Source: an uncultured Prevotellaceae bacterium
GTDB taxonomy: Bacteria > Bacteroidota > Bacteroidia > Bacteroidales > Bacteroidaceae
NCBI GenBank assembly: GCA_900321835.1
Contig: ONXQ01000058.1
Location: forward strand, 1-32,160
Direction of reading: 5' to 3'
DNA: 32,160 nt
The number at the start of each line of letters is the position of its first letter. The first letter of the stretch is position 1. The position numbers were made by a program, and so were the translations under genes. The notes under the pieces were generated by a model. The model saw only the letters and a list, made by a program, of their open reading frames with translations. It was not told the DNA's origin and searched no databases. Below, in pieces: positions 11,525-31,974 of the stretch.

Positions 11525-11698
11525 CTACCAGAGGTCGCCCCAGTCGGTGTGCTCGTCTTCGTCGTGCGATTTGGTCTCGGCCACGTCGGGACCATTATCA
11601 CCGCCGAAGTGCAGCGAGTCGTCGCCGCAGATGTACTGGCGGACGTGCAGGGTCAGGGATTCCTGACCGGGTGTTTGATAGGATTTCTTATGGTTCAT
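11525..11698 (-). CDS. 57-residue peptide ending WGDLW (micro-gene 1)
   Basis: ATG at 11698 to TAG at 11525. The peptide starts MNHKKSYQTPGQESL and ends DEDEHTDWGDLW. It has no signal peptide or membrane segment, is acidic in its C-terminal half, and carries one Cys. Its ATG overlaps the TGA of the C10 peptidase gene (ATGA, 11695-11698), and a strong terminator follows its stop, so it is the last gene of that transcript and probably translationally coupled. Two further genes in the window (21550-21723 and 27515-27703) share the KK[ST]Y start and the WG..LW end, which argues that this short frame is real. Function unknown; substrate, inhibitor, propeptide or signalling peptide are all open. 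Confidence 0.75.
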   Translation of the reverse strand: MNHKKSYQTPGQESLTLHVRQYICGDDSLHFGGDNGPDVAETKSHDEDEHTDWGDLW

Positions 11699-14600
11699 TT
11701 GATCAGCACTTTTTGTCCGTTGATAATGTAGAGGCCGGGGGTTAATGGGGCATTGTCTGCCACGCGACGGCCTTGCAGGTCATAGACGGCACCAGAATTT
11801 TTCACATTTAACTTTTCACTATTCACTTCCCCGATGCCTGTGGCCGTGTCGTCGATGACGATGGCAAGGCGCTTTGCAGCCAGTGAGGCTGGAGCGGTGA
11901 AGTAGGCACGGAAGGGGGCTACATCGACGCTGCCGCTGGTTTTCCAGAACTTGTTCTGGGCGATGTAATAGACGTTGGCATCGGTGACGGCCTGCTGGGT
12001 ATAGGTGCCCAGGAGGCTCCAGCCGGCGAGGTCGGAGGCAGCCGTGGCGTCGGCGGTGGGAGCCACAGCGGCCGACGTGGCAAGGAAACCGACGGTGGCT
12101 TCGCCTTCGCCCAGACGGCGATAGACAGCCGGGGTGTTGGCGGCTACGCGGCTGACGGGGGTGAAACGCATCGATTCATCGCTGACCGAAGCGAGGGTGT
12201 AGAACTGCACGTCGGCATTGGTCTCGACGGAGTAGGGCAGCAGGAGCGTGCCCCACTGTTGCGTCATCGAGCGTTCGTAGCGGGCATTTAGAGCGGTGAA
12301 CGACTTGGGGAAGTCGAGCGCCACACCGTCGGTAAGGACGAAGTTGAGGCACTGGCCGTTGGCGACGACGTTGTTCTGCTCCGACTTGAACTGTGTGCCG
12401 GTGGCGGCGTAGATGACCTGGTTCTTGTTGCGCGGATAGAAGCGCACACCCGTAGCCTGTCCGTAGAGGGTGAGGTCGTTGCCTGCCGTGTAGTCAACAT
12501 AACCGGCATCGCGTCCGCCCCAGAAGTAGTCCTGACGCAGGTAGGAAGCGTCGGTCTCCTGCTCGGCAGCCGTTCCGCTGATGAACTGCAGGCGCACGTT
12601 CTTCATCTGGATATAACTCTTCAGGGCTCGGATGCCAAAGAAGACGGAATTGCTGGTCGTTGTGGCGGCACAGGTGTAGGTGCCAAAGGCGCGGGAGTCA
12701 CCGCTGTTGAAGGTGCTCACCTGCTCCGAAGCGCCGACACGCTCACCGATGATGAAGGCCACCATGTCGGCAGCGTCGCCCTCGAAAATCGTGCCGAGAT
12801 CGACACTGAGGCGGTAGGTACCGTTGGGCAGACCGCTGACGTTCTGGTTGATTTCCAGGTCGTTGAGCGTAGGATACCAAATATTATAGACGCGTGCGCC
12901 GTCCTGGTCGCGAATCCACACGTCGCCGTCGCCTTCCACGTTCTTGACACCCATTGTCCATCCGGCAGGGGCCTCGCCCGAGAGTGATGCGTCGGAGAGG
13001 TTGGCATTCACGACAAACTGCGTGGCGTCTTGGCCTGCCTCTGCAATCTTGGCACCGTTGGTCAGGACGGTGATGGCTGTCTGAATCTCGTCGGCTGTCT
13101 TCGTGGCATACTCGGCGTCAGTCCATTCGTACTGCGCCAAAGCCGCCGTGGCTGCACCCGGCGTGGAGGCCTCGTAGGTGTTGCGTGCGTTCTGGCAATA
13201 TGCAAGAGCACGGGCGTAGGGTGTTATGATTTCGACGTCGGCTCCGTAGCAGAGCACCACGGCATTGTCCCAACCGACCCAGTTGGCATCGGTGCCTTCG
13301 ATGAAGAGACCGGCCGTCACGTTGCCCTTAGCCGTGGCAGTGAACTTCTCGGTCGTGAAGTATTTAGGCGCGGCGTTGCCCGTGTGGCAAGCGACCGTCT
13401 TGTCGCCCAGGCGCAGCGTCACGCCACTCACACTGAGCGCAGTGTTGTTCTGACGTACAGCATTGACGGCTGCACGCAGCGCGTAGGTGCCTTTGTAGAG
13501 ATAGATGCTCTGCGTGACATTCATGTTGGCCAAAGCACCTTCTGACCCCGTCCACGACTCCATAAAGTCAGGATCGAAGTTGGCGTAGGTGGCTCCCTGT
13601 TTCCAAAGGTTGCCGCTGAGCGTCCAGCCCGTCAGGTCATCCTCCATGCGGGGGTTCGTCAGGAGCGGCAGACGGATAGGATTTGTGGCCGAAGCCAGTG
13701 CGTAGTAAGATTCCTCCGAACCTGCCCAGTAGAGGAACAGGTTGTCAACGCCCACCCAGTTGGCTGTCGTCATGTCGGTCTTCATGCCGAAGGTGAGGGT
13801 GCCGTCGGTCACGGTGACTTTCAGGGCGTAGATTTCGGGAACGCCGTTGTTGGTTCCGAGGCTGACGGCCTGGTCGCCGGCCCAGAACGTGACGCCTTCG
13901 ACGTTACGGCCTTCTCCGCCCTGTGCTGTAGCCATGAACGAACCGCCGATGTAGTAGGTGCCGTTCTGCAGTTCGCGGATGGTCTGCTGGAAACCGCCGT
14001 TGTCAAGCATTTTGGTGGATTCGGTCCAGCGCTCGATGAAGGGAGCCGACATTGCAGCGCCGTCGCTGCCGCTGTAGTTGCCCCAAGTGCCTATGGCAAA
14101 GCCGTTGTTGGTGTACTCTCCGAGCGAGGCTGTGGAGAGCCAGGGCGCAAAGGCGTTGGTGAGGTCGTAGTATTCCTGGCCTGCTGCAGCGTTCTTTACG
14201 GTGCTGTAGGTGTAGTCGGGGGTGTTCAGATAGCGGTAGAGGCGGAAGTCGTCGGCTTTGTACCAACTGCCGGCCTTGACGCCGATGGAGAGTTTTCCGT
14301 CGCTGCCGACGGTGATGCCGTCGATGCAGACGTCTGTGAGGTAGTATTTTCCGCAGTCGTGTGCGCCGGTGGTGGCGGTTTGTTCGCCTGCGAAGACGGT
14401 CACAGTGTTGCCGGGGTCGGTAGCCACTTTGGCTGTGAGCCGATAGGTGCCGGGCGCAAGTCCGGTCAGTGTCTGGCTGATGCCATTCCCCGTGTCGCCT
14501 GCGAGCCATGAGTCGAGCACCATCGTGCCGTTGCAGCCCACAGCGCGCCACGTGTCGTTGTCGGCAGGACGGCTGTATTGTCCGTCGGCATAGGTCCAGC

Positions 14601-16128
14601 CCGTCGGACGATTGCTGCTGTTGTAGATTTCGAACGACGGGTTTGTTATTTTGCTCGTGACGTCTTCAAAGTCGCCAGGAACTTTGATGCGGTCGAGGAT
14701 GTGGAAGGTGTTATCGACGACGGTGAGGTACCACACACTGCCTGCGCCGGGATTGACGGTGAAGGTGAGCGGTACGTTGGCTCCACCTGCGGGGATGGGG
14801 GTCCAGTCGGCCTGATAGTTTTCCCACGCAGTGGGCTGGAAGGGTTGTTCGGAGCAGAAAATGTTGATGGCTGCACTGTAGTCGAAGGTGCCGTTGTTCT
14901 GCACGTTCACGGTGACGGTGTTGTCGGTGTTGGCCTGGAAGTTCGGTGCCGAAATCTGCGCGCTGAGGTTCTGACGCTTCGGGTAGATGCGGTGGGTCAT
15001 GCTTTGATCGACATTGAAGCCATTGGCGTCACTGAGGGCGAAGTAGCCATTCCATCCGCCGTTCCAACCGAAGTCGAAATAATATTTCCCGTCGCTCAGG
15101 CGGTAGCCGTCGAGCACGAAGGCATGGCCTGCCCCGTCGCTGGCGTAGCCGCTGTAGAGGATGGGCCGTCTTGCCTCCAGGTTCTCGGCAATCAGTCCTT
15201 CCCATGTGTCCATGTTGTTGATGCCGCTGTACCAGGTGTTTTCTCCGTTCAGGTTGAACACGGCCAGTGCATTGGGCTGTTCGCTGCTCTGCGCACCGCT
15301 GGCACCTGCCTGATAGTCCATGTGGACGGCTGTGCCGACGATGGACACCAGTTCCGCGGCACTGGTGTAGTAGTCGCTGCCGTTGCCGTAGTTCGTTCCG
15401 TTATACGAGTCCTTCATCAGTTCCCAGCGCATGGGAAAACCGGCTGGGTAGCCCTTCACGGCTATCTTTTTGGTCCATGTCGTATAGTCGTCCGTTTTGT
15501 TCAGAGTGTAGCGGGGGCAGTCGCGCCGCCAATAGTGAATCACTGACGAGGTGCTCGTGGCCACGCATCCTGTGGCACTGCGGCCTCCGCCAGCCTCGTC
15601 CCAGGGGCACAGGTCGAAGTAGGGCCAGCCTTGTCCCCAAGCCGATGTCATCAAGGGGGCAATGTCGCGCGAAGGTGCTTTGCGCACACGTGGGGCCTGG
15701 CGCCGTGCTTTCACGACCTGCCGTGCCGCCTCTTCGCCGTTTTCGGCCACGTAGGCATGGTATTTGTCGAGTGCCACCTCGAAGCCCATGAGGTAGTCCT
15801 GCAGGGCGGGCGGCATGTTGGATGGGTCGTAGTTGCCCTGTTCGGTGTAGCCGATGATTTCGGGCAGGAGGTCGTCGCCTGCGACGATGACAAATCCCTG
15901 GTTCTCACCGCGTGAGAAGATGTAGTAGGGTTTTGTCGTGGTGGAGAGTCTGGCCGCAGCGCGACGCTTCAGATTCACACTCTGTCCGCCGTTCAGGAGG
16001 ACGGGCTGGCTACCGGCAGGGAGATAGGGGGCTGCCAGTTGCTTGGCTCTCTGGAGGCTGATGGGGTCGGCCCATGCAGCCAGGCTGGCCAGCGCCAGCA
16101 GAGCACACGAAAGTAGGGTTCTTTTCAT
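11695..16128 (-). CDS. Secreted C10 (streptopain-like) cysteine peptidase with carbohydrate-binding-like modules
   Basis: 1477 residues. Signal peptide 1-20 (MKRTLLSCALLALASLAAWA). A SpeB-type propeptide occupies ~21-150. The C10 catalytic domain spans ~155-385: oxyanion Gln166 in 'SAWGQGWPY', nucleophile Cys188 in 'RSATGCVATS', His335 in 'DGAGHAFVLDGY', and the Trp loop 'FGWNGGWNGYF' at ~353-363. All expected catalytic residues are present. Next come a CARDB-like beta domain (~390-485) and four jelly-roll modules of the 'NPSFE..GW..DNF.LY' type (~490-1200) that resemble carbohydrate-binding modules. The last segments are a beta domain and the end 'VYDLQGRRV...GLYIINGQKVLIK', which resembles a T9SS-type sorting signal. 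C10 enzymes are usually under 500 residues, so the ~1000-residue tail is unusual. A proteolytic enzyme anchored to glycans or glycoproteins is a reasonable inference. Confidence 0.93.
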   Translation of the reverse strand: MKRTLLSCALLALASLAAWADPISLQRAKQLAAPYLPAGSQPVLLNGGQSVNLKRRAAARLSTTTKPYYIFSRGENQGFVIVAGDDLLPEIIGYTEQGNYDPSNMPPALQDYLMGFEVALDKYHAYVAENGEEAARQVVKARRQAPRVRKAPSRDIAPLMTSAWGQGWPYFDLCPWDEAGGGRSATGCVATSTSSVIHYWRRDCPRYTLNKTDDYTTWTKKIAVKGYPAGFPMRWELMKDSYNGTNYGNGSDYYTSAAELVSIVGTAVHMDYQAGASGAQSSEQPNALAVFNLNGENTWYSGINNMDTWEGLIAENLEARRPILYSGYASDGAGHAFVLDGYRLSDGKYYFDFGWNGGWNGYFALSDANGFNVDQSMTHRIYPKRQNLSAQISAPNFQANTDNTVTVNVQNNGTFDYSAAINIFCSEQPFQPTAWENYQADWTPIPAGGANVPLTFTVNPGAGSVWYLTVVDNTFHILDRIKVPGDFEDVTSKITNPSFEIYNSSNRPTGWTYADGQYSRPADNDTWRAVGCNGTMVLDSWLAGDTGNGISQTLTGLAPGTYRLTAKVATDPGNTVTVFAGEQTATTGAHDCGKYYLTDVCIDGITVGSDGKLSIGVKAGSWYKADDFRLYRYLNTPDYTYSTVKNAAAGQEYYDLTNAFAPWLSTASLGEYTNNGFAIGTWGNYSGSDGAAMSAPFIERWTESTKMLDNGGFQQTIRELQNGTYYIGGSFMATAQGGEGRNVEGVTFWAGDQAVSLGTNNGVPEIYALKVTVTDGTLTFGMKTDMTTANWVGVDNLFLYWAGSEESYYALASATNPIRLPLLTNPRMEDDLTGWTLSGNLWKQGATYANFDPDFMESWTGSEGALANMNVTQSIYLYKGTYALRAAVNAVRQNNTALSVSGVTLRLGDKTVACHTGNAAPKYFTTEKFTATAKGNVTAGLFIEGTDANWVGWDNAVVLCYGADVEIITPYARALAYCQNARNTYEASTPGAATAALAQYEWTDAEYATKTADEIQTAITVLTNGAKIAEAGQDATQFVVNANLSDASLSGEAPAGWTMGVKNVEGDGDVWIRDQDGARVYNIWYPTLNDLEINQNVSGLPNGTYRLSVDLGTIFEGDAADMVAFIIGERVGASEQVSTFNSGDSRAFGTYTCAATTTSNSVFFGIRALKSYIQMKNVRLQFISGTAAEQETDASYLRQDYFWGGRDAGYVDYTAGNDLTLYGQATGVRFYPRNKNQVIYAATGTQFKSEQNNVVANGQCLNFVLTDGVALDFPKSFTALNARYERSMTQQWGTLLLPYSVETNADVQFYTLASVSDESMRFTPVSRVAANTPAVYRRLGEGEATVGFLATSAAVAPTADATAASDLAGWSLLGTYTQQAVTDANVYYIAQNKFWKTSGSVDVAPFRAYFTAPASLAAKRLAIVIDDTATGIGEVNSEKLNVKNSGAVYDLQGRRVADNAPLTPGLYIINGQKVLIK

Positions 16129-16598: not shown

Positions 16599-19500
16599 CT
16601 ACTTGACGAAGACTTTCTGGCCGTCGATGATATAGAGGCCGGGGGTTAATGAAGAATAGGTGTGACTTTCATTCTTCATTCTTAATTCTTCATTATTCAT
16701 ATTGCCGACGAGGCGGCCTTGCAGGTCATAGATTTTATTCTTCATTCTTAATTCTTCATTCTTAATTTCGCTTATGCCTGTGGCTGTGTCGCCCTCGAAG
16801 CGCACGACAGCCTTTGCCTCCTGGCTGTCCGGCGTGTCGAGCGTGAGGTAGGCACGGGTGCCCTTCATCGTTCCGGCAGCATCGCCGACGATGTAGAAAC
16901 GGTCGTCAGAGATGACGTAGTTGGCCTTGCCGCTGACGGTGCTGCGGCCGACGGTCGTTTCTGCCGCATAACTGCCGACAAGGCTGCCGCCGGTGAAGGT
17001 GGCTGTGCCGGCTGTGCCGGTCGTGGTCAGAATGCCGGGAAAGGCATAGGTGTTGTCGTCGCTGACGGTGGCAGGAACGAGGAGAAAGGGCACGTGGGCG
17101 GTGGTGGTCGTGAGCGTCTGGGTGGCGAGGATGCCTTCGGCGCTGTCGTACGACGTTATCTGCTCCATCACCGTTCCACTGCCGAACACCTGCTCGGCCA
17201 GTGCCTGCGTCAGTGCGAAGGGCAGCAGCAGCGTGTTGTGCTTGCCGGCCTTGAGCGTGCGGGTGAGTTGTGCAGCCGTGATGTTGGCCTGCTCAACCGT
17301 GTAGTCGGCACTCTCGTCGAGGGTGGCAGGGTGCAGATTGAGGCGGAAGTTGAACTGGCAGGCGCGGTGCTTGCCGGCATCGTCGGCCGGCGCCAGCATG
17401 AGGACCGAGCAGACGTAGGTGCCTGCCTGACAGGCGCCGGGACGCTGTCCGTGACCGAGTTTCAGCGTGCCGCCGTCGATGTAGAACCCCTCGATGTTGA
17501 GAAAGATGCGGGCCGTGGCTTCGTTCCAAGTGGGCTGGTTGTAGAGTGTGCCCGGAGTTCCGTCGGTGTTCTGATACCAGAAACCTTTGGCGTCGCTGGC
17601 GTTCTTTGTCCGGCTGATGCTGCTGTCGTCGAGCGGCGCATACATCATGTCGAGTTTGAACTGGCTGATTGGCAACTGGAGCAGTGTGGGCACGTCGCCG
17701 CCGGCACTGAGGCCCGTGACGTTGTGCGTGGCCCACTCGTCACGGACAGGGAAAAAGTCGATGTCGATGTCCTGTGTGTGGACGATGTTGAGGTTCGCCC
17801 TGTCCACCACCACGGGGTAAGCCTCGAAATATGCCTTGTCGGCCGTGCGAGGCATCCACACCTGCATGAGGCCGCGGCCACGGTTGTTCCAAGCATAGTA
17901 GGGAACGAGCGTGAGCGTGGCATCGGCAGCCGTGCCGGTGCTCTTCATCTTGCCTGCCAGGGTGATGCCCTTGAAGGCGTAGGTCGCGATGTTAGCGTCA
18001 CTGACGGTCGCGACAGCGTCGTCGGGAGCAAAGAGGGCTGTGAAATTGTCGGGATTGTCAACGCCTTCCATGCAATAGACGATAGGACCGCGCTCGATGG
18101 CCACAAGGCCCTGGTCGGCAGCCACGGCGTTGTTGGCCACGACGTGCTGCACTGGCATCGGCAGTGTGAAGGTGACCACGTCGCCCTGCTGCCAGGTGCG
18201 ATCGATGGTCATGTAGCCGTCCTGCATCGTGTAGTCCACCTGCACGCCGTTCACCTTGACGATGATGGTTTCGGTGGCAGCATCGACATAGGTGTAGAGG
18301 TCGCTCGGCACGGGCTGTCCTTTGGCCCATCCCGGCAGACGCAGCATCAGTGCGAAGTGGCTGTCGGTCAGGTGTTCATTGTCCACTGTAACCTGGATGT
18401 CGCCGTTCCACGGATAATCCGTCGTCTGCGTCAGGTTCAGTGTACCCTGCGTTCCGAGGTCGATGTCGGCCGAGCCCTGCATGTAGAGGTTCACATACAC
18501 TTTGTTGTCCTTGTGGGCATAGACATAACCGGGGACGGAGGCGATGAATCGACAGAGGTTGCTCGGACAGCAGGCGCAGCCAAACCACGGTTCGCGTTCA
18601 GCCGAACGGCCGTTGTAACCGTTGCCGTCGCTGGCCAGCGGATTGGGATAGAAGAAGCGGTTGCCGTCGAGATTGATACCACTGATCACACCGTTGTAGA
18701 GCGAACGCTCCAGCACGTCGTAGTATTTCGACTCGCCGTGCAGCAGGAACATACGCCAGTTCCAATAGACATTGGCAATGGCTGCACACGTCTCGCAGTA
18801 GGCTTCCTTGTTCGGCAGTTCGTAGTTGCTGCCGAAGGCCTCACCGGCGTGGCGCGCACCGATGCCGCCGTTGATGTAGAATTTCTTTTCTGCCACATTG
18901 GACCAGATCTTGTCGATGGCCTGCAGATAGTCGGCGTCGCCCATGATGGCTGCCACGTCGGCCATACCACTGTACATATAGGCGGCACGCACTGCGTGTC
19001 CCACGGCTTCGTCCTGCTGGACTACGGGCTTGTGTGTCTGGCTGTATTCCTGGCGCATCGTGCCGCGTGTTCCTCTCAAGTCGAGGAAATACTTCGCCAG
19101 CCGCAGATAGTCTTCCTTGCCGGTGACGCGGTAGAGTTTCACTAGACCCATTTCGACAATCTGGTGGCCCGGTTCGTAGGTCAGTCCGCCTTCGAGGAAG
19201 TCGTGGACAAGCAAGTCGGCGTTTTTCGTGGCTATGTCAAGCAGCGACGTCTTGCCTGTTGAGATGTAGTGGGCAGCAGCGGCCTCGTAGAGGTGGCCTG
19301 CGTTGTAGAGTTCGTGACTGAGGTCGGGGTCTTTCTCCCATCGGTTCTGTCCCACCCAGGCGTGCATTCCGGCCGGATTTCCGGCGGTGCGCGGTGTGTA
19401 GAGATAGCCGTCGGGTTCCTGGGCCGAGCCCACGATGGCGATGAGTTCGTCCATCTTGGCCGAGAGTTGGGCATTGGGCTGCACCTGAACGCTGTAGGCC

Positions 19501-21512
19501 ATGCCTTCGAGGATTTTGTAGATGTCGGTGTCGTCGAAGGTACATTCGGTGTCGAAGTAGCCGATATTCTCGCCGCGCAGGATGGCTGCGGCTTTCTGGA
19601 AGTTCAGCACGCGGTTGGAGTTGTAGCACTGTTCGATGGCAAAGGGGATGGTGACGCTCTGGTTTTGCACCATGCGTGGCTGCCAGAACTGGTCGGTCAG
19701 GTGGACGCGGCTGAAGTCAACGTTCTGAATCGGATAGTCGCCGTAGGTGACGACGGGAGTCTGACGGTGGCCCAGCACTTCCCATTCGGTCACGCCGACG
19801 GCTGAGTAGGTCGAAGTGCCCTTCTGACACTGCATCACGAGGCGGAGCCCAGTGGTCGTGACAGGCTGGATGCGTATGCTGCTGACGGCGGTGCGGCTCT
19901 GTGTGTAGGCCTCTCCGTCGAGCAGGACGACGTCCTTCCATGTGCTGGTCGTCTCGTCCCAATACTGGATGGTCCACGATGCAGGGATGAGCACGTTGTC
20001 GCCCGCTACGTCGTTGTCCGACCAGAAGGCCACGCGCACGCGCTCCACTGTCTGCGGTGTGCTCCATCCGTAGCGCAGCCACTGCGAGGCCGGGCGACTC
20101 GTGCTCCACGTGTTCCAGTGCTTCGCTTCGGGCAGTTCGCCGAAGCCGAGGATGCCGTCGTTCACGCTGTAGAGGTCGGTGGTGTTGTGGGTGAAACTGG
20201 CTTCGACCTGTGTGGCGTCGTAGGCCAGGTTGTCGAGTGCTTCGGGCAGGCCGGCGGTGTAGTCGGTCGTTGTGCCGAGCATGATTTGGCAAAACTCGTT
20301 GAGGTCGGCGAGCGAGACGTGTGCATGTTGGTGCCAGTAGTTGATGAACTGCTGCTGCAGTGTCGCACCGTCGAAGGTCTTGACATAGTTGACGATGGGC
20401 TCGACCATTGTCTTCGTGCGTGTCTCGCCTTCGGGGAAGGAGAGTGCCGTCAGTTCGTATTCCTGGTAGAGGTCGTCCTCCGACAGTCCGAGCAGGCCTT
20501 CGAGCATGAGTGCGAGTGTGCCGGTGCGGTCGGCGCCCCAGATGCAGTGGAAATAGACGGTGCGGCCTTCGCGCAGGTTCTTCAAGATGAAGTCGAAGTC
20601 GCTGCGCAGGTTGGGCCATGCCGTACGTACGCCGTCGAGGTAGTAGGGTTCGTTGACCACGCGGAGGTAGTTGACGTCGGTGCCCAGGGGCGACGAGGTG
20701 ATGCTCTTGGCCTGCAGATGGGTGCGCAGGTCGAGTTCGGCGCGGATGCCCACTTCGTCGTGCAGCAGGGTCAGGTCGGCCGTGCTGGCGGTGAATTTGT
20801 CACCCTGCATTTCGCAGCCGCGCAGCAGTTTGCCGTACAGCACGGTTTCGCCGCGCTCGGTCGTCCAACCGCCCAGGTCGCGGATGTTCTGCATCTGGCT
20901 GGCCTCGACGACGTGTACCCATTCGGGCGCCTCGTCGTCGGCACCGACCACCTTCAGCGTGAGGTCCATCTCGACGGCTTTCGTTCCGTTGACCACATAG
21001 AAGGTCGAGTGGTACGTGTCGCCAATCTTCGAGGTGTAGGCATTGTTATAGCCGCCTGCCTGACCTGTCCAGATGGTGTAGTTCGACGCATCGGAAGTGA
21101 CGGGCTGGATGAACCACCAACTCTGTCCTCCCCACGACGAGCGGCATCCCTGCTTGTCGTACCAGTTGTCGTTGTTGTGGCCGTAGGTGCCGTCGGTGAG
21201 CGGCAGGTAGGTCATGTTCACCATGTTGGAGGTCGAAACCGTCGTGCCGAGCAACGCCGTCAGTTCGGAGAACGGCACCTGCAGCGTCGTGTGGTCGTAG
21301 AGCGTGTTGGGGTTCTGCTCGGCCACCAGCACGTAGCGCACAGCCACGTCGAGCGTCTTCGACTCGGTCTTGTAGGTGAAGGCCACCTGCTTCGACACGT
21401 CTTCACGGGTCACGCTGCCTTTGCCGATTTCGGCATCGGCCCATGCAGCGGCAGCCTGCACCATGCACAGCACTGCCAGCAGCATCATTCGGTTGATTCG
21501 TCTCATTGTCAT
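16599..21512 (-). CDS. Secreted phosphatase / F5-8C / GH127 beta-L-arabinofuranosidase fusion protein
   Basis: About 1637 residues from the ATG at 21512 (MTMRRINRMMLL). ATGs at 21533 and 21506 are alternatives, and the upstream extension to 21671 lies inside the small gene. Signal peptide ~1-25. A beta domain (~27-195) is followed by a Y_phosphatase3-type domain (~205-415) starting 'QNIRDLGGW', with the CX5R loop HCIWGADRTG (C323, R329). Then comes an F5/8C-like module (~420-585). GH127 (DUF1680) covers ~595-1130: 'GEAFGSNYELPN' (E891), 'YCETCAAIANVYWNW' (E907, C909) and 'GCACCPSN' (C981, C982). These match the acid/base Glu and the Zn-binding Glu/Cys set with Cys nucleophile known for HypBA1, including the 16-residue spacing between the two Glu. 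A beta domain and the sorting-type end 'GLYIIDGQKVFVK' follow. The frame is continuous, so this is a true fusion. Likely role: removal of L-arabinofuranose from plant glycans or glycoproteins; phosphatase substrate unknown. Confidence 0.9.
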   Translation of the reverse strand: MTMRRINRMMLLAVLCMVQAAAAWADAEIGKGSVTREDVSKQVAFTYKTESKTLDVAVRYVLVAEQNPNTLYDHTTLQVPFSELTALLGTTVSTSNMVNMTYLPLTDGTYGHNNDNWYDKQGCRSSWGGQSWWFIQPVTSDASNYTIWTGQAGGYNNAYTSKIGDTYHSTFYVVNGTKAVEMDLTLKVVGADDEAPEWVHVVEASQMQNIRDLGGWTTERGETVLYGKLLRGCEMQGDKFTASTADLTLLHDEVGIRAELDLRTHLQAKSITSSPLGTDVNYLRVVNEPYYLDGVRTAWPNLRSDFDFILKNLREGRTVYFHCIWGADRTGTLALMLEGLLGLSEDDLYQEYELTALSFPEGETRTKTMVEPIVNYVKTFDGATLQQQFINYWHQHAHVSLADLNEFCQIMLGTTTDYTAGLPEALDNLAYDATQVEASFTHNTTDLYSVNDGILGFGELPEAKHWNTWSTSRPASQWLRYGWSTPQTVERVRVAFWSDNDVAGDNVLIPASWTIQYWDETTSTWKDVVLLDGEAYTQSRTAVSSIRIQPVTTTGLRLVMQCQKGTSTYSAVGVTEWEVLGHRQTPVVTYGDYPIQNVDFSRVHLTDQFWQPRMVQNQSVTIPFAIEQCYNSNRVLNFQKAAAILRGENIGYFDTECTFDDTDIYKILEGMAYSVQVQPNAQLSAKMDELIAIVGSAQEPDGYLYTPRTAGNPAGMHAWVGQNRWEKDPDLSHELYNAGHLYEAAAAHYISTGKTSLLDIATKNADLLVHDFLEGGLTYEPGHQIVEMGLVKLYRVTGKEDYLRLAKYFLDLRGTRGTMRQEYSQTHKPVVQQDEAVGHAVRAAYMYSGMADVAAIMGDADYLQAIDKIWSNVAEKKFYINGGIGARHAGEAFGSNYELPNKEAYCETCAAIANVYWNWRMFLLHGESKYYDVLERSLYNGVISGINLDGNRFFYPNPLASDGNGYNGRSAEREPWFGCACCPSNLCRFIASVPGYVYAHKDNKVYVNLYMQGSADIDLGTQGTLNLTQTTDYPWNGDIQVTVDNEHLTDSHFALMLRLPGWAKGQPVPSDLYTYVDAATETIIVKVNGVQVDYTMQDGYMTIDRTWQQGDVVTFTLPMPVQHVVANNAVAADQGLVAIERGPIVYCMEGVDNPDNFTALFAPDDAVATVSDANIATYAFKGITLAGKMKSTGTAADATLTLVPYYAWNNRGRGLMQVWMPRTADKAYFEAYPVVVDRANLNIVHTQDIDIDFFPVRDEWATHNVTGLSAGGDVPTLLQLPISQFKLDMMYAPLDDSSISRTKNASDAKGFWYQNTDGTPGTLYNQPTWNEATARIFLNIEGFYIDGGTLKLGHGQRPGACQAGTYVCSVLMLAPADDAGKHRACQFNFRLNLHPATLDESADYTVEQANITAAQLTRTLKAGKHNTLLLPFALTQALAEQVFGSGTVMEQITSYDSAEGILATQTLTTTTAHVPFLLVPATVSDDNTYAFPGILTTTGTAGTATFTGGSLVGSYAAETTVGRSTVSGKANYVISDDRFYIVGDAAGTMKGTRAYLTLDTPDSQEAKAVVRFEGDTATGISEIKNEELRMKNKIYDLQGRLVGNMNNEELRMKNESHTYSSLTPGLYIIDGQKVFVK
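16660..16770 (-). repeat. Simple-sequence repeat inside the C-terminal linker of the GH127 fusion
   Basis: Two blocks of a GAATGAAGAATTAAGAATGA-like repeat (minus strand) encode NEELRMKN twice, once just before 'KIYDLQGRLV' and once between that motif and 'SLTPGLYI'. Related AT-rich repeats of the GTGAATAGTGAA type lie at the equivalent point of the C10 gene (about 11800-11830) and of the plus-strand gene ending at 27496 (about 27373-27405). Confidence 0.75.
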
Positions 21513-21549
21513 TTTGTTTATTATAGTTATCATTTTGTTTACTTTTGGT

Positions 21550-21723
21550 TCACCACAGTTGTCCCCACTCGGCCGTCGGCTCTTCTGTGGTTTCTGTGCG
21601 CTGCTTGGCGTCGATGTCCATACTGCTGTCGAACTCGCCGCTGCCTTGCTGGAGATTGCAAATATAGTCATTCTCCAGCAAAATCTGAACGGTTTTGGGC
21701 TGAAAATACGTTTTTTTCATCAT
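21550..21723 (-). CDS. 57-residue peptide ending WGQLW (micro-gene 2)
   Basis: ATG at 21723 (MMKKTYFQPKTVQ) to TGA at 21550. It ends with 'SSMDIDAKQR' followed by an acidic stretch and EWGQLW. The frame is open further upstream, but a promoter -7 element lies 34 bp before this ATG, which favours the short form. It shares with micro-gene 3 (27515-27703) the KKTY start, a Gly/Asp-rich centre, the core MD[IV]DA[KR] and the WG..LW end. There is no signal peptide or membrane segment. It is the first gene of a two-gene operon with the phosphatase-GH127 gene, whose start is 17-44 bp further on. Function unknown. Confidence 0.75.
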   Translation of the reverse strand: MMKKTYFQPKTVQILLENDYICNLQQGSGEFDSSMDIDAKQRTETTEEPTAEWGQLW

Positions 21724-22612: not shown

Positions 22613-25600
22613 ATGAAAAAGTCTATCTTTTTTCTGCTGTCAGCCTTGCTGCTCATGCCTCTGGGCGTGAGGGCACAAGTGACAGCCGGCACCTATTATT
22701 TCTATAATGTGGGTGCAAGGAAGTATTTGAACTACGGCGGCAGCGACGACTACACCGCCTGCCTGAAGCCGCACGGCGAACCGCTCGTGCTGACAGCAAG
22801 TGGCACGGGATTCACGGTGCAGACGGCACTCGACAACCGCTACCTCAGCGCGACGGCTACTACGGAAAACGCCCGTCAGTCGTCGGGAACGGTGTTCACC
22901 TTCACACAGCAGTCGGACGGCACCTACACCATTTCGTCGTCGGCCGGCTACATGGGATTTGGCGGCACAGTGGCGTCCAACCTCGCGGGCACGCTGGTGC
23001 AGATGAATCTCAGCGACGCCACAAGCGACAACGCCCGCTGGCAGTTGCTCACGAAGAACGACCTGATGGCCCGACTGAACAGCGCTTCGGCTTCCAACCC
23101 CGTCGATGCCACGTTCTTCATTACCTGCCCCAACTTCGACCGTCACCATGCTCAACTCTCGGCATGGACCGACTATACGACGGGCAACAACGTGGGCTAT
23201 CTCTGCAACAACGCCGCCTACAAGTTCGACTCGAACACAACGGTGCAGCAAACTCTCAGCGGAATGCCCAACGGTGTGTATCTGCTGAAGGCGCAGGCCT
23301 TCTATCGCCACGGTTCGAACGGCACGGCTACGGGCTATTCCAACCCCGACGACATGCCCGTGAAGGGTGTGATGTTCGCTGGGAATGACCAGGTGGCAGT
23401 GGCCAATATCCTGTCGCCCGACCAGCGCTCGGCCACCGACATCTTCAGCGCATACGGCTCTTACGGTCGTTCGTATGGCGGCGGCTACATCCCCTATGGT
23501 GCCAGCAACAACTATGCAGGAGCCTGCATCGCATTCGACAACGGACTCTACACCGGCAACGAACTGCAGACACTCGTCACCGACGGCACCCTCACCATTG
23601 GCTTCAAGATTACGGAACTGACTCAGTTTTCGTGGATAGCCTACGACAATATCGAACTCTATTATCTCGGCGCTCCTGTCGACCTCACTCCCTTCAAGGA
23701 AGCCTACTACGCCCTGCGCACCAAGATTCAGGACAACATCGTGGGGCAGACGGCTGTCTTCACCGACAATGACGGCGCACTTGCCTCCTACAACACCGTG
23801 CTCGCTGCACAGAACGACATCGTCGAAAATGCTTCGGCACAGGAAGACATCGAAGGCGCAAAGACCGCTCTCTGGCAGGCTGCACTCACCTTCCTCGAAT
23901 CGGTCAAGGTCAACAACGGACAATACTTCGACCTCACCTCCTTCATGGTCAACCCCGCCGTCGCCCCCGCCCCCAGTTCGACTACCGCTGCCGAAGGCTG
24001 GACCGCCAGCAAGAACATGAACTTCACCTCGTACCAGATTACACAGTTCCCCGGCTCGTCGGCCGACCCCCACTTCAACCTCTACCAAGTCGTTGCCGAC
24101 ATGCCGGCAGGCCAGTACACCGTGAAGGCACGCGGCTTCTATAGCCCTGGTGCACGTACCACCGACATGACAAGTGTATCCACGACCGAAGTGCCTGTAT
24201 TGCTCTATCTGAACGAAACGACCCAGCCGCTGCTCAACATCTGTGCCGACGGCTCAGCAACACAATTGTCAGAAGGCTATCAGACTTCAGTCAACGGCAC
24301 GACCCTCTATGTGCCAAACTCCCGTTCACACCTCCAGGCCTTCTACGACGCAGGCCACTACTGGAACGAGATGCCTGCCGTCGTCAGCGACCGCGGCGAC
24401 CTGACCATCGGCCTCAAGTACGACGCTTGGGTGTCGGGCGGATGGGGCGTCATCAGCGACTTCCACCTCTACTACCGCGGTGCGCTCGACCTCAGCGCCT
24501 GGCAGGAACAACTCGCACAGACAGTTAGTGCGGCACAAAACCTCGTCATCCCGACGTTGCCTCGTCGCCAGTTGACCGACGTCATTCAGCAGAACAACAA
24601 GACCTACACCACCGCAGAGGACTATCAGGCCGCCATCGCCGCCATCAACGCAGCAGTGGCCGTTGCAGAGCCCTACGTCGAACCGTATGCTGACTACAAG
24701 ACCATGCGGCAGATGATTCAAGAGCGCTTCATCGACCAGACCGCCGTCTATATCGACGAAGGCACAGCCGCCAGCGACTACAGCAGTGCGCTCTCCACGG
24801 CCAATACCAATGTGGAGAACGTCAGCAGCGTGGCTGCGCTCGAAGCCGAGAAGCAGAACCTCTGGGCCGCAGCCCTCACATTCCTGAAGAGCGTCACCAT
24901 CAACGAGGGACAAGGTTTTGACCTCACATGGATGATTCAGGACGCAGACTTCAGCGATACGAACTACAAGGCGTACTGGACAGAGACACTGGCCTCATCG
25001 ACGACTGTCGGAGTGACCAACGGCGTGATGCGCTACTACAACAGTTCGTTCGACCTCGGACAGACGCTGCCCTACACGCTGCCTGCCGGTGCGTACAAGA
25101 TGACGGTCGATGGCTTTGAGCGCACCAACGACCCGCGTGATACGGCTTGGGCTGACTTCCAGGCTGGCAATAGCGTTGTCACAGGAGCCATCTACCTCAA
25201 CAACAATGAGCAACTGGTGATGAACCTGTTCGACTATAAGACAAAGACGGACAACGGTTGGGGCGGCGAGCAACCCAGCGGCGCTTCGTTCTATATCCCT
25301 AACGGCAGCGGTGCAGCCAACACTTATCTGCAGAACGGGGCCTATCCCAACACGCTCATCGGTGTGCTGGCCGACGATGCCCTTGTCACCATCGGCTATC
25401 GCTGTGCCAACACGAAGGCTTGGACGGCTGTCGATAACTTCAAACTCTGGTACATCGGCGAAGTTCCTCAGGTGGCAATTAGCAACGAGGCTGGCGTACT
25501 CACACCTGTCTGCGCTCCGTTCACGCTCAGCACCGACGATGACAGTGTTGTCGAACTCTACGCCCTTGCTGGTGAGGAGCATGAGGGTAGCCTCTCAATC

Positions 25601-27496
25601 TATCCTGTCAACACCGTTCCAGCCGGCACGCCTTGCTATGCCAAGTTCAGCATCGCCAACTACAGTGCACCGATGGAGATGACGCTGACCAACGGCAAGA
25701 AGTTTGTCATGCCGTGGGCTGGCGGCTGGGCCAGGGTGAATGCTGCTAACGACACCTGGACCTACTACGGCATGGATGGAGATTCCCATCCAGATGCAGA
25801 GATAGGAAAGGTTGTGCTTGACTTCAATGACATGGAGTTCAATGTCAATATGGAGAACCTCGCTGCACGCAGGTATCTTAATTCAGTATTCTACAGCGGC
25901 AGCAGCGAAGCCTCTGAGGTTGCGGCCTACAACGTGGCTCCTCCCACACGCCGTGACATTCCCAATGCCGTAATGATACCGCTGCCGGCTCACAACGATG
26001 AAATAGAAATCACCATACAGAACAGCAATTTGGAAGAGGTGGTAAGCATCATGGTTCCTGCTGAAGCCACAGAAGCCTATGTCTATAACCTCTTGCCACA
26101 GGAGACCTATTACTTCGAGGCGATCACTGGCTATCGAGGTCAGTTCCATACGAAGGGTCACCTGCGCATGGTCTATGCACCGTCGGCCTACAACATCCGC
26201 GACCTCGGTGGTTGGGAGACGCAGGATGGATACCGCACTACCTACGGTCACCTCTTCCGTGGCTCGACGCTCAACGGCTACGTCAGTGCCACTGCCGAAG
26301 ACTTGCAGACACTGCGCGACCTTGGTGTGGGTGGCGAAATCGACCTCCGCTATCAGGAATCCTACGACAAGGATATGGGCTGCGGCACGTCGGCCTTCGG
26401 TTTTGGTGCGGACGACTACTACTTCGCCGCTGCCAACGACTACACGGCAGCCAACCTCAATGAGAGCGGCACTCAGCAGCGTCTGAAGCAGGAGTTCGAC
26501 TTCATCCTCAACCACTTCCGTCAGGGCAAGGCTGTCTATTTCCACTGCGCATGGGGTGCTGACCGCACGGGTATGCTCGCCTTCCTGCTCGAAGGCCTGC
26601 TCGGCTTGACGATCGACCAGATATACAAGGACTACGAACTGACTTCGTTCTCAGTTGCCGGTAACCGTCTGAAGACCTCATTCCAGGACCGCATCGACGT
26701 CATCCTCGCGCTTGAAGGTGCCACGCTGCGCGACAAGTTTGAAAACTACTTCCTGAACAAACTTGGCGTTCCTATGGACGACATCACCTACTTCCGCAGT
26801 GTGATGCTCGAAGTCTATCCGCTCACAGTCGATGAGGATGCAGCCATGCCCACCATCTACGACGGCGAAGCCGACATCCTCCTGCACCGCACGCTGAAGG
26901 CCGGTATGCACAACACCGTCGTCCTGCCTTGCAACCTCCCGCTGTGGAAGGCTCAGTATTACTTCGGCAGCGACGTGAAGATGGAGCGCATCACGGCCTA
27001 TGACGACGTGCTGGAGACGCAGGAAATCGATGAGGCTCCGGCCCACACGCCCTTCCTGCTCACACCGAGCGCTGTCAGTGCCGACCACACCTACCTGCTC
27101 GAAAAGGTCAAGGTTGTCGAAGGAACGTTGCAGGATGCCGAGTTCACGAACGGCAAACTCGTTGGTGTCTATGACGCAACGCTCCGCCTCGAGAAATCGA
27201 CCGAAACGGGCAAGGACTTCTATGTCATCTCCAACGACCGCTTCTACCGCGTCAATGCCGACCCGGCTCCGCTGCGCAACACCCGCGCCTACCTCGTGCT
27301 CGACACGCCGGCTGGCCAGGAGGCCAAAGCCGTCGTCCGCTTCTCCGACGACGAGACCACGGGCATCGGGGATGTGAATAGTGAACAGTTAAAAGTGAAC
27401 AATGATGCGGCCGTCTTTGACCTGCAAGGCCGTCGCGTGGCACAGCCGGCAAAGGGCCTCTACATCGTCGGCGGCAAGAAGGTGCTGATGAAGTAA
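22613..27496 (+). CDS. Secreted multidomain phosphatase with beta-trefoil-like and carbohydrate-binding-like modules
   Basis: 1627 residues. Signal peptide 1-22 (MKKSIFFLLSALLLMPLGVRAQ). The N-terminal ~25-160 repeats short beta segments ('GTYYFYNVGARKYLNYGG', 'LDNRYLSATA') and may be a ricin-type trefoil. Jelly-roll modules with the 'WIAYDNIELYYLG' or 'WTAVDNFKLWYIG' signature follow at ~160-970, separated by helical FIVAR-like segments ('AYYALRTKIQDNIVGQTAVF', 'TMRQMIQERFIDQTAVY'). After an FN3-like stretch (~1105-1180) comes the Y_phosphatase3-type domain (~1185-1400): 'YAPSAYNIRDLGGW' and the loop HCAWGADRTG (C1312, R1318). A beta domain ('RTLKAGMHNTVVLP') and the end 'VFDLQGRRVAQPAKGLYIVG' complete it. 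It likely dephosphorylates a tyrosine-, inositol- or lipid-type phosphate outside the cell; the substrate is unknown. It has its own promoter, and micro-gene 3 follows after 18 bp. Confidence 0.88.
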   Translation: MKKSIFFLLSALLLMPLGVRAQVTAGTYYFYNVGARKYLNYGGSDDYTACLKPHGEPLVLTASGTGFTVQTALDNRYLSATATTENARQSSGTVFTFTQQSDGTYTISSSAGYMGFGGTVASNLAGTLVQMNLSDATSDNARWQLLTKNDLMARLNSASASNPVDATFFITCPNFDRHHAQLSAWTDYTTGNNVGYLCNNAAYKFDSNTTVQQTLSGMPNGVYLLKAQAFYRHGSNGTATGYSNPDDMPVKGVMFAGNDQVAVANILSPDQRSATDIFSAYGSYGRSYGGGYIPYGASNNYAGACIAFDNGLYTGNELQTLVTDGTLTIGFKITELTQFSWIAYDNIELYYLGAPVDLTPFKEAYYALRTKIQDNIVGQTAVFTDNDGALASYNTVLAAQNDIVENASAQEDIEGAKTALWQAALTFLESVKVNNGQYFDLTSFMVNPAVAPAPSSTTAAEGWTASKNMNFTSYQITQFPGSSADPHFNLYQVVADMPAGQYTVKARGFYSPGARTTDMTSVSTTEVPVLLYLNETTQPLLNICADGSATQLSEGYQTSVNGTTLYVPNSRSHLQAFYDAGHYWNEMPAVVSDRGDLTIGLKYDAWVSGGWGVISDFHLYYRGALDLSAWQEQLAQTVSAAQNLVIPTLPRRQLTDVIQQNNKTYTTAEDYQAAIAAINAAVAVAEPYVEPYADYKTMRQMIQERFIDQTAVYIDEGTAASDYSSALSTANTNVENVSSVAALEAEKQNLWAAALTFLKSVTINEGQGFDLTWMIQDADFSDTNYKAYWTETLASSTTVGVTNGVMRYYNSSFDLGQTLPYTLPAGAYKMTVDGFERTNDPRDTAWADFQAGNSVVTGAIYLNNNEQLVMNLFDYKTKTDNGWGGEQPSGASFYIPNGSGAANTYLQNGAYPNTLIGVLADDALVTIGYRCANTKAWTAVDNFKLWYIGEVPQVAISNEAGVLTPVCAPFTLSTDDDSVVELYALAGEEHEGSLSIYPVNTVPAGTPCYAKFSIANYSAPMEMTLTNGKKFVMPWAGGWARVNAANDTWTYYGMDGDSHPDAEIGKVVLDFNDMEFNVNMENLAARRYLNSVFYSGSSEASEVAAYNVAPPTRRDIPNAVMIPLPAHNDEIEITIQNSNLEEVVSIMVPAEATEAYVYNLLPQETYYFEAITGYRGQFHTKGHLRMVYAPSAYNIRDLGGWETQDGYRTTYGHLFRGSTLNGYVSATAEDLQTLRDLGVGGEIDLRYQESYDKDMGCGTSAFGFGADDYYFAAANDYTAANLNESGTQQRLKQEFDFILNHFRQGKAVYFHCAWGADRTGMLAFLLEGLLGLTIDQIYKDYELTSFSVAGNRLKTSFQDRIDVILALEGATLRDKFENYFLNKLGVPMDDITYFRSVMLEVYPLTVDEDAAMPTIYDGEADILLHRTLKAGMHNTVVLPCNLPLWKAQYYFGSDVKMERITAYDDVLETQEIDEAPAHTPFLLTPSAVSADHTYLLEKVKVVEGTLQDAEFTNGKLVGVYDATLRLEKSTETGKDFYVISNDRFYRVNADPAPLRNTRAYLVLDTPAGQEAKAVVRFSDDETTGIGDVNSEQLKVNNDAAVFDLQGRRVAQPAKGLYIVGGKKVLMK

Positions 27497-27978: not shown

Positions 27979-30900
27979 ATGCTGAACCCGAAGAAAGTCC
28001 TTTCGCTCGTTGCCGCCATGCTGATGGCCGGCACGCTCATTGCCTGGGCACAGACCGAACCTGCACGCCAGGACATGACCGACCGCCTGCAGAACCCCTC
28101 GTTTGAAACCGGCACGACCGACGGATGGATCATCTCGACCGTCGGCGGCACCGAGGTCGGTGCTCGCGAAAACGCCAACGAAGTCTATAAAACCGCCGGA
28201 TGCGACGGCCAGTGGCTGTTCAACTCCTGGTATTCGGCCAACGACTACACCTTTGTCGCCCCCAACCAGTTTGTCGAACAGACGGTCACAGGACTGCCCG
28301 CAGGCGAATACCGCCTCGTGGCCCTTGCCGCCAGCGACACCTATCTGAACGTCAACACGCCTGTCGAACTCTTTGCCAACACCTACAGCCTCCAGTTCGT
28401 TCCCCAGCACAAGAGCACGTTCACCGAACACGAACTGCCCTTCTTCGTCAGTCCACAGACGCTGAACGTGAAACTCGGAATGCGCACGGCCAGTTGGTTC
28501 AAGTGCGACAACTTCCGTCTCTACTACCTCGGCCAGACCGATGCCTACAAGCACGAAATGGGGCTCGACGACGCGGCGACAGGACTGCATCCCCAACTTG
28601 TTGACTACCACGACGGCTACTACGCCGACGGCTGGCAGTTCACCGAGACTACGGCCCACACTCACGGCGACTTCCCGCTCGTGACCAACAACATGGACGA
28701 AACCATCTTCGAGGTGTCGCGCTTCCAGTTCTGGACCGGTCCGGCCTACCAACTCGGCAACGCCCGCATCACGTATGCCTACACGAACCTCCAGCCCGGA
28801 TGGTACGAATTTCGCTCGAAAGTGCGCGTCTATGACGAAAACGGCGACTTCGACGGAACGGCCAGCGGCCTGAACATCCTGGCCAACACCGCCACAACCC
28901 CCATTGAGGAGGGCAGCGAAATCGTGGCTGGCGGACTGTCGGGAAAAGGATTCACCGGCGAATACAGCGTCATGGCGCAGGTCGGTGCCGACGGCCGTCT
29001 GACCGTGGGCTTCGAGACCCAGGGTGCCACCTTCAACTGGCTCTCCTGGACCCAGGCCCGCGTGCTTTACTACGGCACCGAGCAACCCGTTGAGCAGACG
29101 TGGTTCCACGAACTCAGCCGACTGGCCAGCGTGGCCCGGCAGGCCGAAAACAGCGACGCCTTCACCCCAGTTTACCTCCAGGCACAGGCCGACCTCACAG
29201 CGGCCCACACCGACGCCGAGGCTGAGGCCGTCGTCCAGCGTGTGCGCAGCGCCGTCATCGACTTTGTCAAGACCAACCCTGCCCGCAACGGACGCTACGA
29301 ACTCTCCGCCCTCATTCCCAATGCCGACCTCACCGACGGCACCCGCGGATGGACCGTGCAGAACGCCACCCTGCGCTGCGGCGAGTCGGGCATCGGCAGT
29401 GTGGAAGGCACACGCAGCCGTGCCACCATCGGCCAAGTGCTCAAGGACATGCCCGCAGGCCACTACACACTCCTCGTCCAGGGCTTCTACCGCCCCGAAG
29501 CCTGGCCCGACGCCATCCGCAACTATGAGAACGGCATCGAGGACAACAAGGCTTCGCTCTACCTCGCCGATGCCACCACGCCCCTTCAGAGCGTGATGAA
29601 CGGACGCCGCTTCGTCTCGACGCGCACCAGCGGCATCCAGTCGCTCATCGACGGCAGCGGCGTCCCCATGAGCCGCGCCGCCGTGCCCACCTCGTTCGGC
29701 TACGGTGACTACTGGAACCAGGTCGATTTCACCCTCACGGCCGACGGCGACCTGCCCTTCGGCATCAGCATCGGCGCAACGACGAAGGCGAACAACTGGA
29801 CCGCCTTTGGCAACCTGCTCCTCTACTACGGCGACGACGTGCCCGACCTGACGCTGTCCGACTCCGACACGGAGTTCGGCGTCGAGGTGCCCACCCTTGC
29901 CCACGTCACACTCCAGAAGAAGTTCTCCGCCGGCATCCTCACACCCCTTTGCCTGCCCTTCGACATCACGACCGAACACTTTGCCGAAATCTACCGCGTC
30001 GGCGGCATCAACGAAAAGACCGCAACGCTCTACCCCGTGGACCGCGTTGCTGCCGGCACTCCGTGTGTCGTCAAGACCAGCGACGCCGCCGAATCCATTG
30101 ATTTCGGCATCGTCACGCTCAGCCCTGTGGTGCCCGACACCCACGTCCTTCCCTGGGGCGGCGGCTGGCTGCAGACCTTCTACATCAAGGAGGCACGCCG
30201 CGAGAGCAACTACAGTTGGAAATTCATGCCCCAGTCGAAGGGCAGCCTCACCCTCGCTACGTCGCTCACCTACTGCGTGACGGACCCCATGCACATGAAC
30301 TTCACAGCCACGCTGGAGAACCTCAGTGCCCGCCGTTTCCTTTCGGAGAACCTCTATTTGCTGACAGGCGACAGCCAGATGAAAAACTACTACAGCACGG
30401 CACCTCCGCAGCGGCGCGACATCCCGAATCCCGTCATGGTGCCCGTGGGCATCGCCGACGCCACGAACGTCTATGTGGAGTGGAGCACCGACAAGTCGTT
30501 TGCCAGTGCCGAGCGTCGCGGAGTGGTACCCGGTGCCAACGCCTACATACCGAACCTCTACCCGCAGCGCACCTACTACTACCGCGTGGTGGCCGACGGC
30601 ACGACGGTCGGTCAAGGCCGCTTCACGACCGACGGCCGTCTGCGCATGATTTATGCGCCCAGCGCCAACAACATCCGCGACCTGGGCGGATGGCTGGTGG
30701 ACGGCAACACGAAGCGCGTTGCCTACGGCCACATTTTCCGCGGTTCGGAACTGAACGGAGCACACATCGCCACAGGGCACGACCTGCAGGTGCTGCGCGA
30801 CCTCGGCGTGGGAGCCGAAATCGACTTGCGCTGGAACAGTTCGTGGGACAATGACGGTGTGGGCATCTCGGCGTTTGGATTCACCGACACCTACTACTTC

Positions 30901-31974
30901 GCCGCAGGCAATGACTGGCTCGCCGAGGACCTGAACAAGGAGGAGTCGATCGGCCACTGGCGCGACGAGTGGAAACTGCTGCTCAAGTCGCTGCGCGAGG
31001 GCAAGGCGCTCTACTTCCACTGTGTGTGGGGAGCCGACCGCACAGGCCTCTTCGCCATGCTCCTCGAGGGCATCCTCGGATTCTCCTTCGATGCCATCTT
31101 TAAGGACTATGAACTCACGTCGTACTCGCTGGCCGGCTTGCGCGAAAAGTCGGGCTGGCAGGACCGCATCGAGGTGATCAACGCCCTGGAAGGCGCGACG
31201 CTGGGTGCCAAGTTTGAGAACTATTTCCTGAACACGCTGAAGATACCTCAGGAGGAAATCGACTACTTCCGCAGCGTGATGCTCGAAGACGTGGCAGTGG
31301 ATGCCGTCGTCATCGACGAGACGACCGACTACGACAGCAGCCTCGACGGCAAGACGGACGTGGAACTCCACCTCAGCCTGAAGGCCGACCAGCGCAATGC
31401 GGTGGTGCTGCCCTTCGGCCTCAGTTCGCAGCAGTTGCGCGGGATGTTCGGCACGGGTGTGCTGGTTGAGCAGGTGAGCGGCTTCGACGGCAAGGAACTC
31501 TCGACCCGCAAGATTTACAGCACCACGGCTAATGTGCCCTTCCTCGTCACCCCTGCCGAAGTGAGCGCCGACGGTACGTACCGTCTGGAAGGCGTGACCC
31601 TCGTGCGTGGCGGAGCCCTCAGTTCGTCGTTTGCCAACGGCCACTTCAGCGGCAACTACGATGCAGCCCTCGACGTGCGTGAGGCTGGTGGCGACGTGGC
31701 CCACAGCAGTTACGTCGTGCAGGACAGGTGTCTCTACAAGGCCGGTGCTGCGACGCCAAGCCTGCCGAGCCTGCACGCCTACATCGTGCTCGACCGTCCC
31801 GACACGTCCGCTGCCGGCACCGTCTATTTCCTGGGCGAGACCCCCACGGCTGTTGAGGCTGTGCGCCGTGAAACCGAGGCCGACGCCGTGGTCTATGACC
31901 TCATGGGCCGTCGTCGGTCCCACGTGCAGCCGGGTCTGAACATCGTGAACGGCAGGAAGGTGCTGGTGCGATAG
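27979..31974 (+). CDS. Secreted multidomain phosphatase with carbohydrate-binding-like modules (second plus-strand copy)
   Basis: 1331 residues. Signal peptide 1-25 (ends GTLIAWAQ). Jelly-roll modules: ~33-190 ('NPSFETGTTDGW' to 'KCDNFRLYYLG'), ~205-365, and ~435-620 ('NADLTDGTRGW'), with a helical FIVAR-like segment at ~370-430. After an FN3-like stretch (~815-880), the Y_phosphatase3-type domain covers ~885-1105: 'YAPSANNIRDLGGW', then HCVWGADRTG (C1015, R1021). The same order as in the gene at 22613, and sequence similarity through the last ~700 residues, show the two are paralogues by duplication. The beta domain 'LSLKADQRNAVVLPFGL' and a degenerate sorting-type end 'YDLMGRRRSHVQPGLNIVNG' finish the protein. 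It has its own promoter, and no WG..LW micro-gene follows it. Substrate unknown. Confidence 0.88.
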   Translation: MLNPKKVLSLVAAMLMAGTLIAWAQTEPARQDMTDRLQNPSFETGTTDGWIISTVGGTEVGARENANEVYKTAGCDGQWLFNSWYSANDYTFVAPNQFVEQTVTGLPAGEYRLVALAASDTYLNVNTPVELFANTYSLQFVPQHKSTFTEHELPFFVSPQTLNVKLGMRTASWFKCDNFRLYYLGQTDAYKHEMGLDDAATGLHPQLVDYHDGYYADGWQFTETTAHTHGDFPLVTNNMDETIFEVSRFQFWTGPAYQLGNARITYAYTNLQPGWYEFRSKVRVYDENGDFDGTASGLNILANTATTPIEEGSEIVAGGLSGKGFTGEYSVMAQVGADGRLTVGFETQGATFNWLSWTQARVLYYGTEQPVEQTWFHELSRLASVARQAENSDAFTPVYLQAQADLTAAHTDAEAEAVVQRVRSAVIDFVKTNPARNGRYELSALIPNADLTDGTRGWTVQNATLRCGESGIGSVEGTRSRATIGQVLKDMPAGHYTLLVQGFYRPEAWPDAIRNYENGIEDNKASLYLADATTPLQSVMNGRRFVSTRTSGIQSLIDGSGVPMSRAAVPTSFGYGDYWNQVDFTLTADGDLPFGISIGATTKANNWTAFGNLLLYYGDDVPDLTLSDSDTEFGVEVPTLAHVTLQKKFSAGILTPLCLPFDITTEHFAEIYRVGGINEKTATLYPVDRVAAGTPCVVKTSDAAESIDFGIVTLSPVVPDTHVLPWGGGWLQTFYIKEARRESNYSWKFMPQSKGSLTLATSLTYCVTDPMHMNFTATLENLSARRFLSENLYLLTGDSQMKNYYSTAPPQRRDIPNPVMVPVGIADATNVYVEWSTDKSFASAERRGVVPGANAYIPNLYPQRTYYYRVVADGTTVGQGRFTTDGRLRMIYAPSANNIRDLGGWLVDGNTKRVAYGHIFRGSELNGAHIATGHDLQVLRDLGVGAEIDLRWNSSWDNDGVGISAFGFTDTYYFAAGNDWLAEDLNKEESIGHWRDEWKLLLKSLREGKALYFHCVWGADRTGLFAMLLEGILGFSFDAIFKDYELTSYSLAGLREKSGWQDRIEVINALEGATLGAKFENYFLNTLKIPQEEIDYFRSVMLEDVAVDAVVIDETTDYDSSLDGKTDVELHLSLKADQRNAVVLPFGLSSQQLRGMFGTGVLVEQVSGFDGKELSTRKIYSTTANVPFLVTPAEVSADGTYRLEGVTLVRGGALSSSFANGHFSGNYDAALDVREAGGDVAHSSYVVQDRCLYKAGAATPSLPSLHAYIVLDRPDTSAAGTVYFLGETPTAVEAVRRETEADAVVYDLMGRRRSHVQPGLNIVNGRKVLVR

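Follow-up and report, generated by a model that had tools for sequence, protein, structure and literature searches.

The window, by which we mean the whole stretch of 32,160 nucleotides that was analysed, carries a gene in which a phosphatase and a GH127 glycosidase are joined in one chain. This fusion gene lies on the minus strand, which the preliminary description did not state. The longest ORF runs from 16599 to 21671 and would give 1690 aa from its first ATG; the start was placed at position 21512, which is Met54 of this ORF, because orthologous proteins start there and a signal peptide comes next. The preliminary description had claimed one uninterrupted frame with the CX5R phosphatase loop HCIWGADRTG and a GH127 domain, and this was borne out: the joined frame has no stops, both domains were found by Pfam, and the residues it named (C323, E891, E907, C909, C981 and C982) are all as stated in Met54 numbering. 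Two parts had escaped it, the DUF4859 module and, at the C-terminus, a weak match to a T9SS-type tail (E 0.008); the domain order given by Pfam is DUF4859, Y_phosphatase3, a weak F5/8C-like match, three GH127 domains and the weak T9SS-type tail. The features are the following:

16599-21512, minus strand: fusion gene (1637 aa when read from Met54), start matched to orthologues
21438-21512, minus strand: likely signal peptide (MTMRRINRMMLLAVLCMVQAAAAWA), read from the sequence and aligned with orthologue starts
20979-21242, minus strand: DUF4859 module (Pfam PF16151, E 5.3e-07, above cut-off)
20394-20903, minus strand: Y_phosphatase3 (CX5R) phosphatase domain (Pfam PF13350, E 3.6e-21; AlphaFold; PDB fold matches)
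20724-20738, minus strand: ELDLR motif with Asp261 (E, D, L and R invariant in 62 homologues)
20520-20549, minus strand: P-loop HCIWGADRTG with the catalytic Cys323, Met54 numbering (sequence; 62 homologues)
19842-20159, minus strand: F5/8C-like (galactose-binding-like) module (Pfam PF22633, E 4.3e-04, below cut-off)
18531-19706, minus strand: GH127 catalytic domain with E891, E907, C909, C981 and C982 (Pfam PF07944, E 1.5e-108)
18156-18503, minus strand: GH127 middle domain, GH127M (Pfam PF20736, E 1.2e-22)
17850-18152, minus strand: GH127 C-terminal domain, GH127C (Pfam PF20737, E 1.1e-23)
16623-16763, minus strand: weak T9SS type-A-like sorting tail (Pfam Por_Secre_tail, E 0.0077, below cut-off)
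26180-26683, plus strand: Y_phosphatase3 domain in the secreted product of the first neighbour, 22613-27496 (Pfam)
30658-31152, plus strand: Y_phosphatase3 domain in the secreted product of the second neighbour, 27979-31974 (Pfam)

The two genes beyond the fusion both encode large secreted Y_phosphatase3 proteins, and in this genome, which is 87% complete, no Y_phosphatase3 gene was found besides these two and the fusion. Downstream of the fusion, 11695-16128 (minus strand) encodes a C10 (streptopain-type) peptidase of 1477 aa with an I69 propeptide, as identified by Pfam. The fusion, its two phosphatase neighbours and the peptidase-like gene also occur together in the genome RUI437, in which the gene at the place of the peptidase is like it in size, start and tail. 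Most neighbours of the fusion are not obvious glycan-degradation genes, and among the listed genes of regions of roughly 9-20 kb no unfused phosphatase was found beside an unfused GH127 gene.

The fusion protein is probably exported and held at the cell surface via type IX secretion. The genome encodes SprA (2726 bits), which makes type IX export of the fusion plausible; that its match to Por_Secre_tail stays below the cut-off (16.9 bits vs 27) counts against this route. In several secreted proteins, short repeats of the type NNEELRMKN / VNSEQLKVNN stand in the linkers that lead up to the sorting-like tail at the C-terminus, or in the tail itself; such repeats occur at window positions 16623-16770 (two copies, in the fusion) and in the tails of 22613-27496 and 11695-16128.

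The same fusion is found in the Bacteroidaceae MAGs RUI437, Tb.RUG.125, RGIG5947 (from sheep omasum), RUG483 and RGIG6791 (from sheep rumen), the last of which reaches the end of its contig before the GH127 part. It is rare: it was present in five of 399 genomes of the family, the window's own included, in 3 of 13 genomes of the window's genus and in 2 of 4 of a second genus, and none was found outside Bacteroidaceae in a 393-genome sample of the order. The assembly that supplied the window is fragmented and MAG-like (226 contigs, 87% complete), and one might ask whether the fusion is an artefact of assembly or gene calling. The probability of this is practically nil, for five other MAGs, from different isolate series and ruminant sources, carry the same architecture and the frame contains no stops; such recurrence in independently assembled MAGs excludes both an assembly artefact and chance. 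In four pairwise comparisons of orthologues, dN/dS was 0.07-0.20 in the phosphatase and 0.08-0.15 in GH127 (with dS near saturation for G044); purifying selection acts on both catalytic halves. The fusion is therefore real and, since at least five other bacteria of the rumen retain it, probably useful. Within the fusion gene, the segment 17316-17765 (minus strand; residues about 1250-1400 in Met54 numbering) has about 99% DNA identity to the RUI437 orthologue, whereas the flanking parts are mostly 64-90% identical, a peak that suggests recent recombination or gene conversion.

The phosphatase half was assigned to Y_phosphatase3 with a score of 76.7 bits, against a gathering cut-off of 22.2. 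In 62 homologues the H, C, G, D, R, T and G of the P-loop are invariant, and the RD.GG motif, the aspartate of the DLR motif, the Cys and Arg of the P-loop and other positions are invariant across the orthologues as well as these homologues. By analogy with the role described for MptpB, we take Asp261 to be the likely general acid. The AlphaFold model built from the 62 homologues has a mean pLDDT of 92.4, and its best fold matches in the PDB are the C. difficile PTP (CdPTP) and MptpB, followed by TpbA, PTPMT1 and SIW14, at TM values of about 0.5 that indicate a shared core and not a close match. A predicted pocket unable to bind phosphate was what the preliminary description saw as speaking against its reading; the model obtained is confident and its P-loop intact. 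With the CX5R P-loop, the catalytic Asp and the PTP fold all present, the phosphatase domain should be active, as far as motifs and a predicted structure can tell. Some pseudophosphatases retain their fold, and the domain stands beside lectin-like modules, so it could also be imagined as a non-catalytic module for phosphate binding or docking. We give this a very slim chance, since the invariance of the Cys, the Arg, the DLR aspartate and all other catalytic residues in orthologues and homologues alike would be unexpected for a pseudoenzyme.

CdPTP (8dhj) and MptpB (1ywf) belong to the same PF13350 family and have in common with the fusion the motifs RDLGG, DLR and HCx5RTG, but the identity in the fold matches is only 14-19%, and the fusion phosphatase, in contrast to both, is secreted and joined to a glycosidase. 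Its P-loop also has Ala where MptpB has Lys (loop HCFAGKDRTG, motif HCxAGKDRTG). Two observations would fit a phosphatase whose targets are phosphotyrosine or phospholipids in cells of the host, of protozoa or of fungi, with the GH127 and F5/8C parts used for binding: these two enzymes are the nearest solved structures, and the gene next to the fusion is that of the C10 peptidase with its I69 propeptide. We consider this quite improbable: the GH127 catalytic set is complete, which exceeds the needs of a binding module, the hosts are rumen bacteria with no signs of pathogenicity here, and the Lys of the MptpB loop is replaced. The glucan phosphatases laforin and SEX4, in which a phosphatase is combined with carbohydrate-related modules and dephosphorylation lets glycosidases work, offer an analogy only. 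Their P-loop signature is CxAGxGR, which the loop of the fusion (CIWGADR) does not have, and they carry no fused GH; the fusion is not a member of this group.

For the GH127 half, PF07944, PF20736 and PF20737 all exceed their cut-offs, and E891, E907, C909, C981 and C982, which comprise the Zn-binding Cys3-Glu set, the Cys nucleophile and the Glu acid/base, are invariant in the homologues. Among solved structures its closest relative is 6ex6 (700 bits), which the fold search names as BT3674, with a TM of 0.91 by target length and 50% identity. BT3674 is the GH127 beta-L-arabinofuranosidase used by Bacteroides thetaiotaomicron in arabinogalactan breakdown. It shares with the fusion the catalytic family and the active-site residues, the 50% identity extending over about 630 residues. 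The usual relatives, of ~800 aa, lack a phosphatase and have an EWxVK-type module at their end, whereas the fusion carries the phosphatase and the F5/8C-like module before GH127 and, in addition, DUF4859 and the sorting-like tail. BT3674-like enzymes are common in Bacteroidaceae: a GH127 match at E <= 0.001, a threshold that also counts more distant GH127 proteins, was obtained in 95 of 121 genomes of the family, and the best matches were mostly proteins of ~800 aa. Assignment to the aceric acid hydrolases of NCBIfam (NF049879) was rejected, the score of 466.5 bits being below the required 950.

The match of the F5/8C-like module to F5_F8_type_C_2 is weak (21.3 bits vs a cut-off of 27.8). A GH127 protein of another genome, at L040:6488-11044 (plus strand), has an N-terminal F5/8C-like module and no phosphatase, and the two modules are 44% identical. 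In the fusion, the F5/8C-like part is therefore probably a companion of GH127, to which the phosphatase was joined. The L040 gene adjoins a regulator with Reg_prop, Y_Y_Y and AraC domains, and in L035 a regulator with Reg_prop and AraC domains flanks the fusion. The model of the phosphatase, F5/8C-like and GH127 parts together has a mean pLDDT of 76.7 and a linker of low confidence, so we draw from it no conclusion on how the two active sites lie to each other.

In a FastTree phylogeny the fused phosphatases form a group of their own (support 1.0) apart from those of the neighbours (P0002 and P0005); the tree is midpoint-rooted, and the sister group of the fused clade is therefore uncertain. 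An origin by local duplication of the two neighbouring phosphatases is not supported by this topology. Dozens of further large proteins secreted by Bacteroidaceae contain Y_phosphatase3 too, and its partners in them vary widely: among 35 scanned these were LRR_5 (9), NAGPA (3), Big domains, dockerin and ricin lectin, and L048 provides a fourth NAGPA fusion. Like the fusion, these proteins have a signal peptide, a phosphatase of this family and a similar tail at the C-terminus, but their phosphatase is usually near the C-terminus and none of those examined contains GH127. The same phosphatase with so many partners indicates a mobile module, and the fusion alone is then no proof of a shared pathway. 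Such mobility, together with the occurrence of the GH127 and F5/8C unit without a phosphatase in L040, is what one would expect if the two halves had unrelated targets, the phosphatase being a general scavenger of phosphate (from phytate, inositol or sugar phosphates in feed) joined by chance to a surface GH127. This is possible, if somewhat unlikely, given that six genomes of two or more genera retain the pairing, with both halves constrained.

In four large secreted proteins (L047, L048, L049 and L069), NAGPA, a phosphodiester glycosidase, is found with LRR_5 and Y_phosphatase3 in one chain, an architecture which may point to phosphorylated glycan substrates. The human NAGPA enzyme cuts sugar-1-phosphodiesters and leaves a phosphate monoester. 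A phosphatase could remove this monoester, so that the pairing would be sensible on phosphorylated glycans, and this is our main reason for favouring glycan phosphates. The NAGPA-linked phosphatases form a separate branch from that of the fusion, with the loop HCAIGRDRT, and by analogy they offer a hint and no more.

The reading that we prefer, and to which we give roughly an even chance, is that of an exported enzyme with two activities, trimming beta-L-arabinofuranose and removing phosphate, tethered for work on the same plant debris. Its GH127 half would use a Zn-bound cysteine mechanism to release terminal beta-L-arabinofuranose from plant glycans of the arabinogalactan or extensin type, a substrate presumed from the 50% identity to BT3674. 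The N-terminal CX5R domain would be a working phosphatase acting on a phosphate monoester, more likely of a glycan or inositol than of phosphotyrosine; that its closest solved relatives are named tyrosine phosphatases counts against this, as do the absence of the glucan phosphatase signature from its P-loop, the separate branch of the NAGPA-linked phosphatases and the scarcity of obvious glycan-degradation genes nearby. With the two activities in one chain, the cell may take both phosphate and arabinose off the same debris. We infer the substrate class of the phosphatase, as we do the benefit of tethering and any placing of both cuts on one molecule. A narrower proposal, that an undescribed rumen glycan carries both a phosphate monoester and beta-L-arabinofuranose and that the phosphatase must precede GH127 or the reverse, is in our view unlikely. 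The preliminary description had suggested a substrate bearing both groups, or else a phosphatase that would dock or regulate the enzyme; its interpretation is supported in part, for the single chain and the two intact active sites. Because the phosphatase family partners so promiscuously, independent tethering is at least as likely as one shared phosphorylated arabinofuranosyl glycan.

The limited open-access literature that we searched contained no phosphatase-GH127 architecture, and accordingly none of the many described proteins that the preliminary description had seen as speaking against its claim of novelty; searches for yeast-mannan phosphatases and for NAGPA in Bacteroides also found nothing. 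The fusion is a new combination of two known catalytic families and not a new kind of system. If both halves work, a single exported enzyme would link the removal of phosphate with that of arabinose, and this would point to phosphorylated glycans of plants or microbes, so far little studied, as substrates in the rumen; a substrate shared by the two activities would, if true, be interesting. The finding also draws attention to the secreted multi-domain phosphatases of Bacteroidaceae, some of them fused to NAGPA, which are a large and little-described class.
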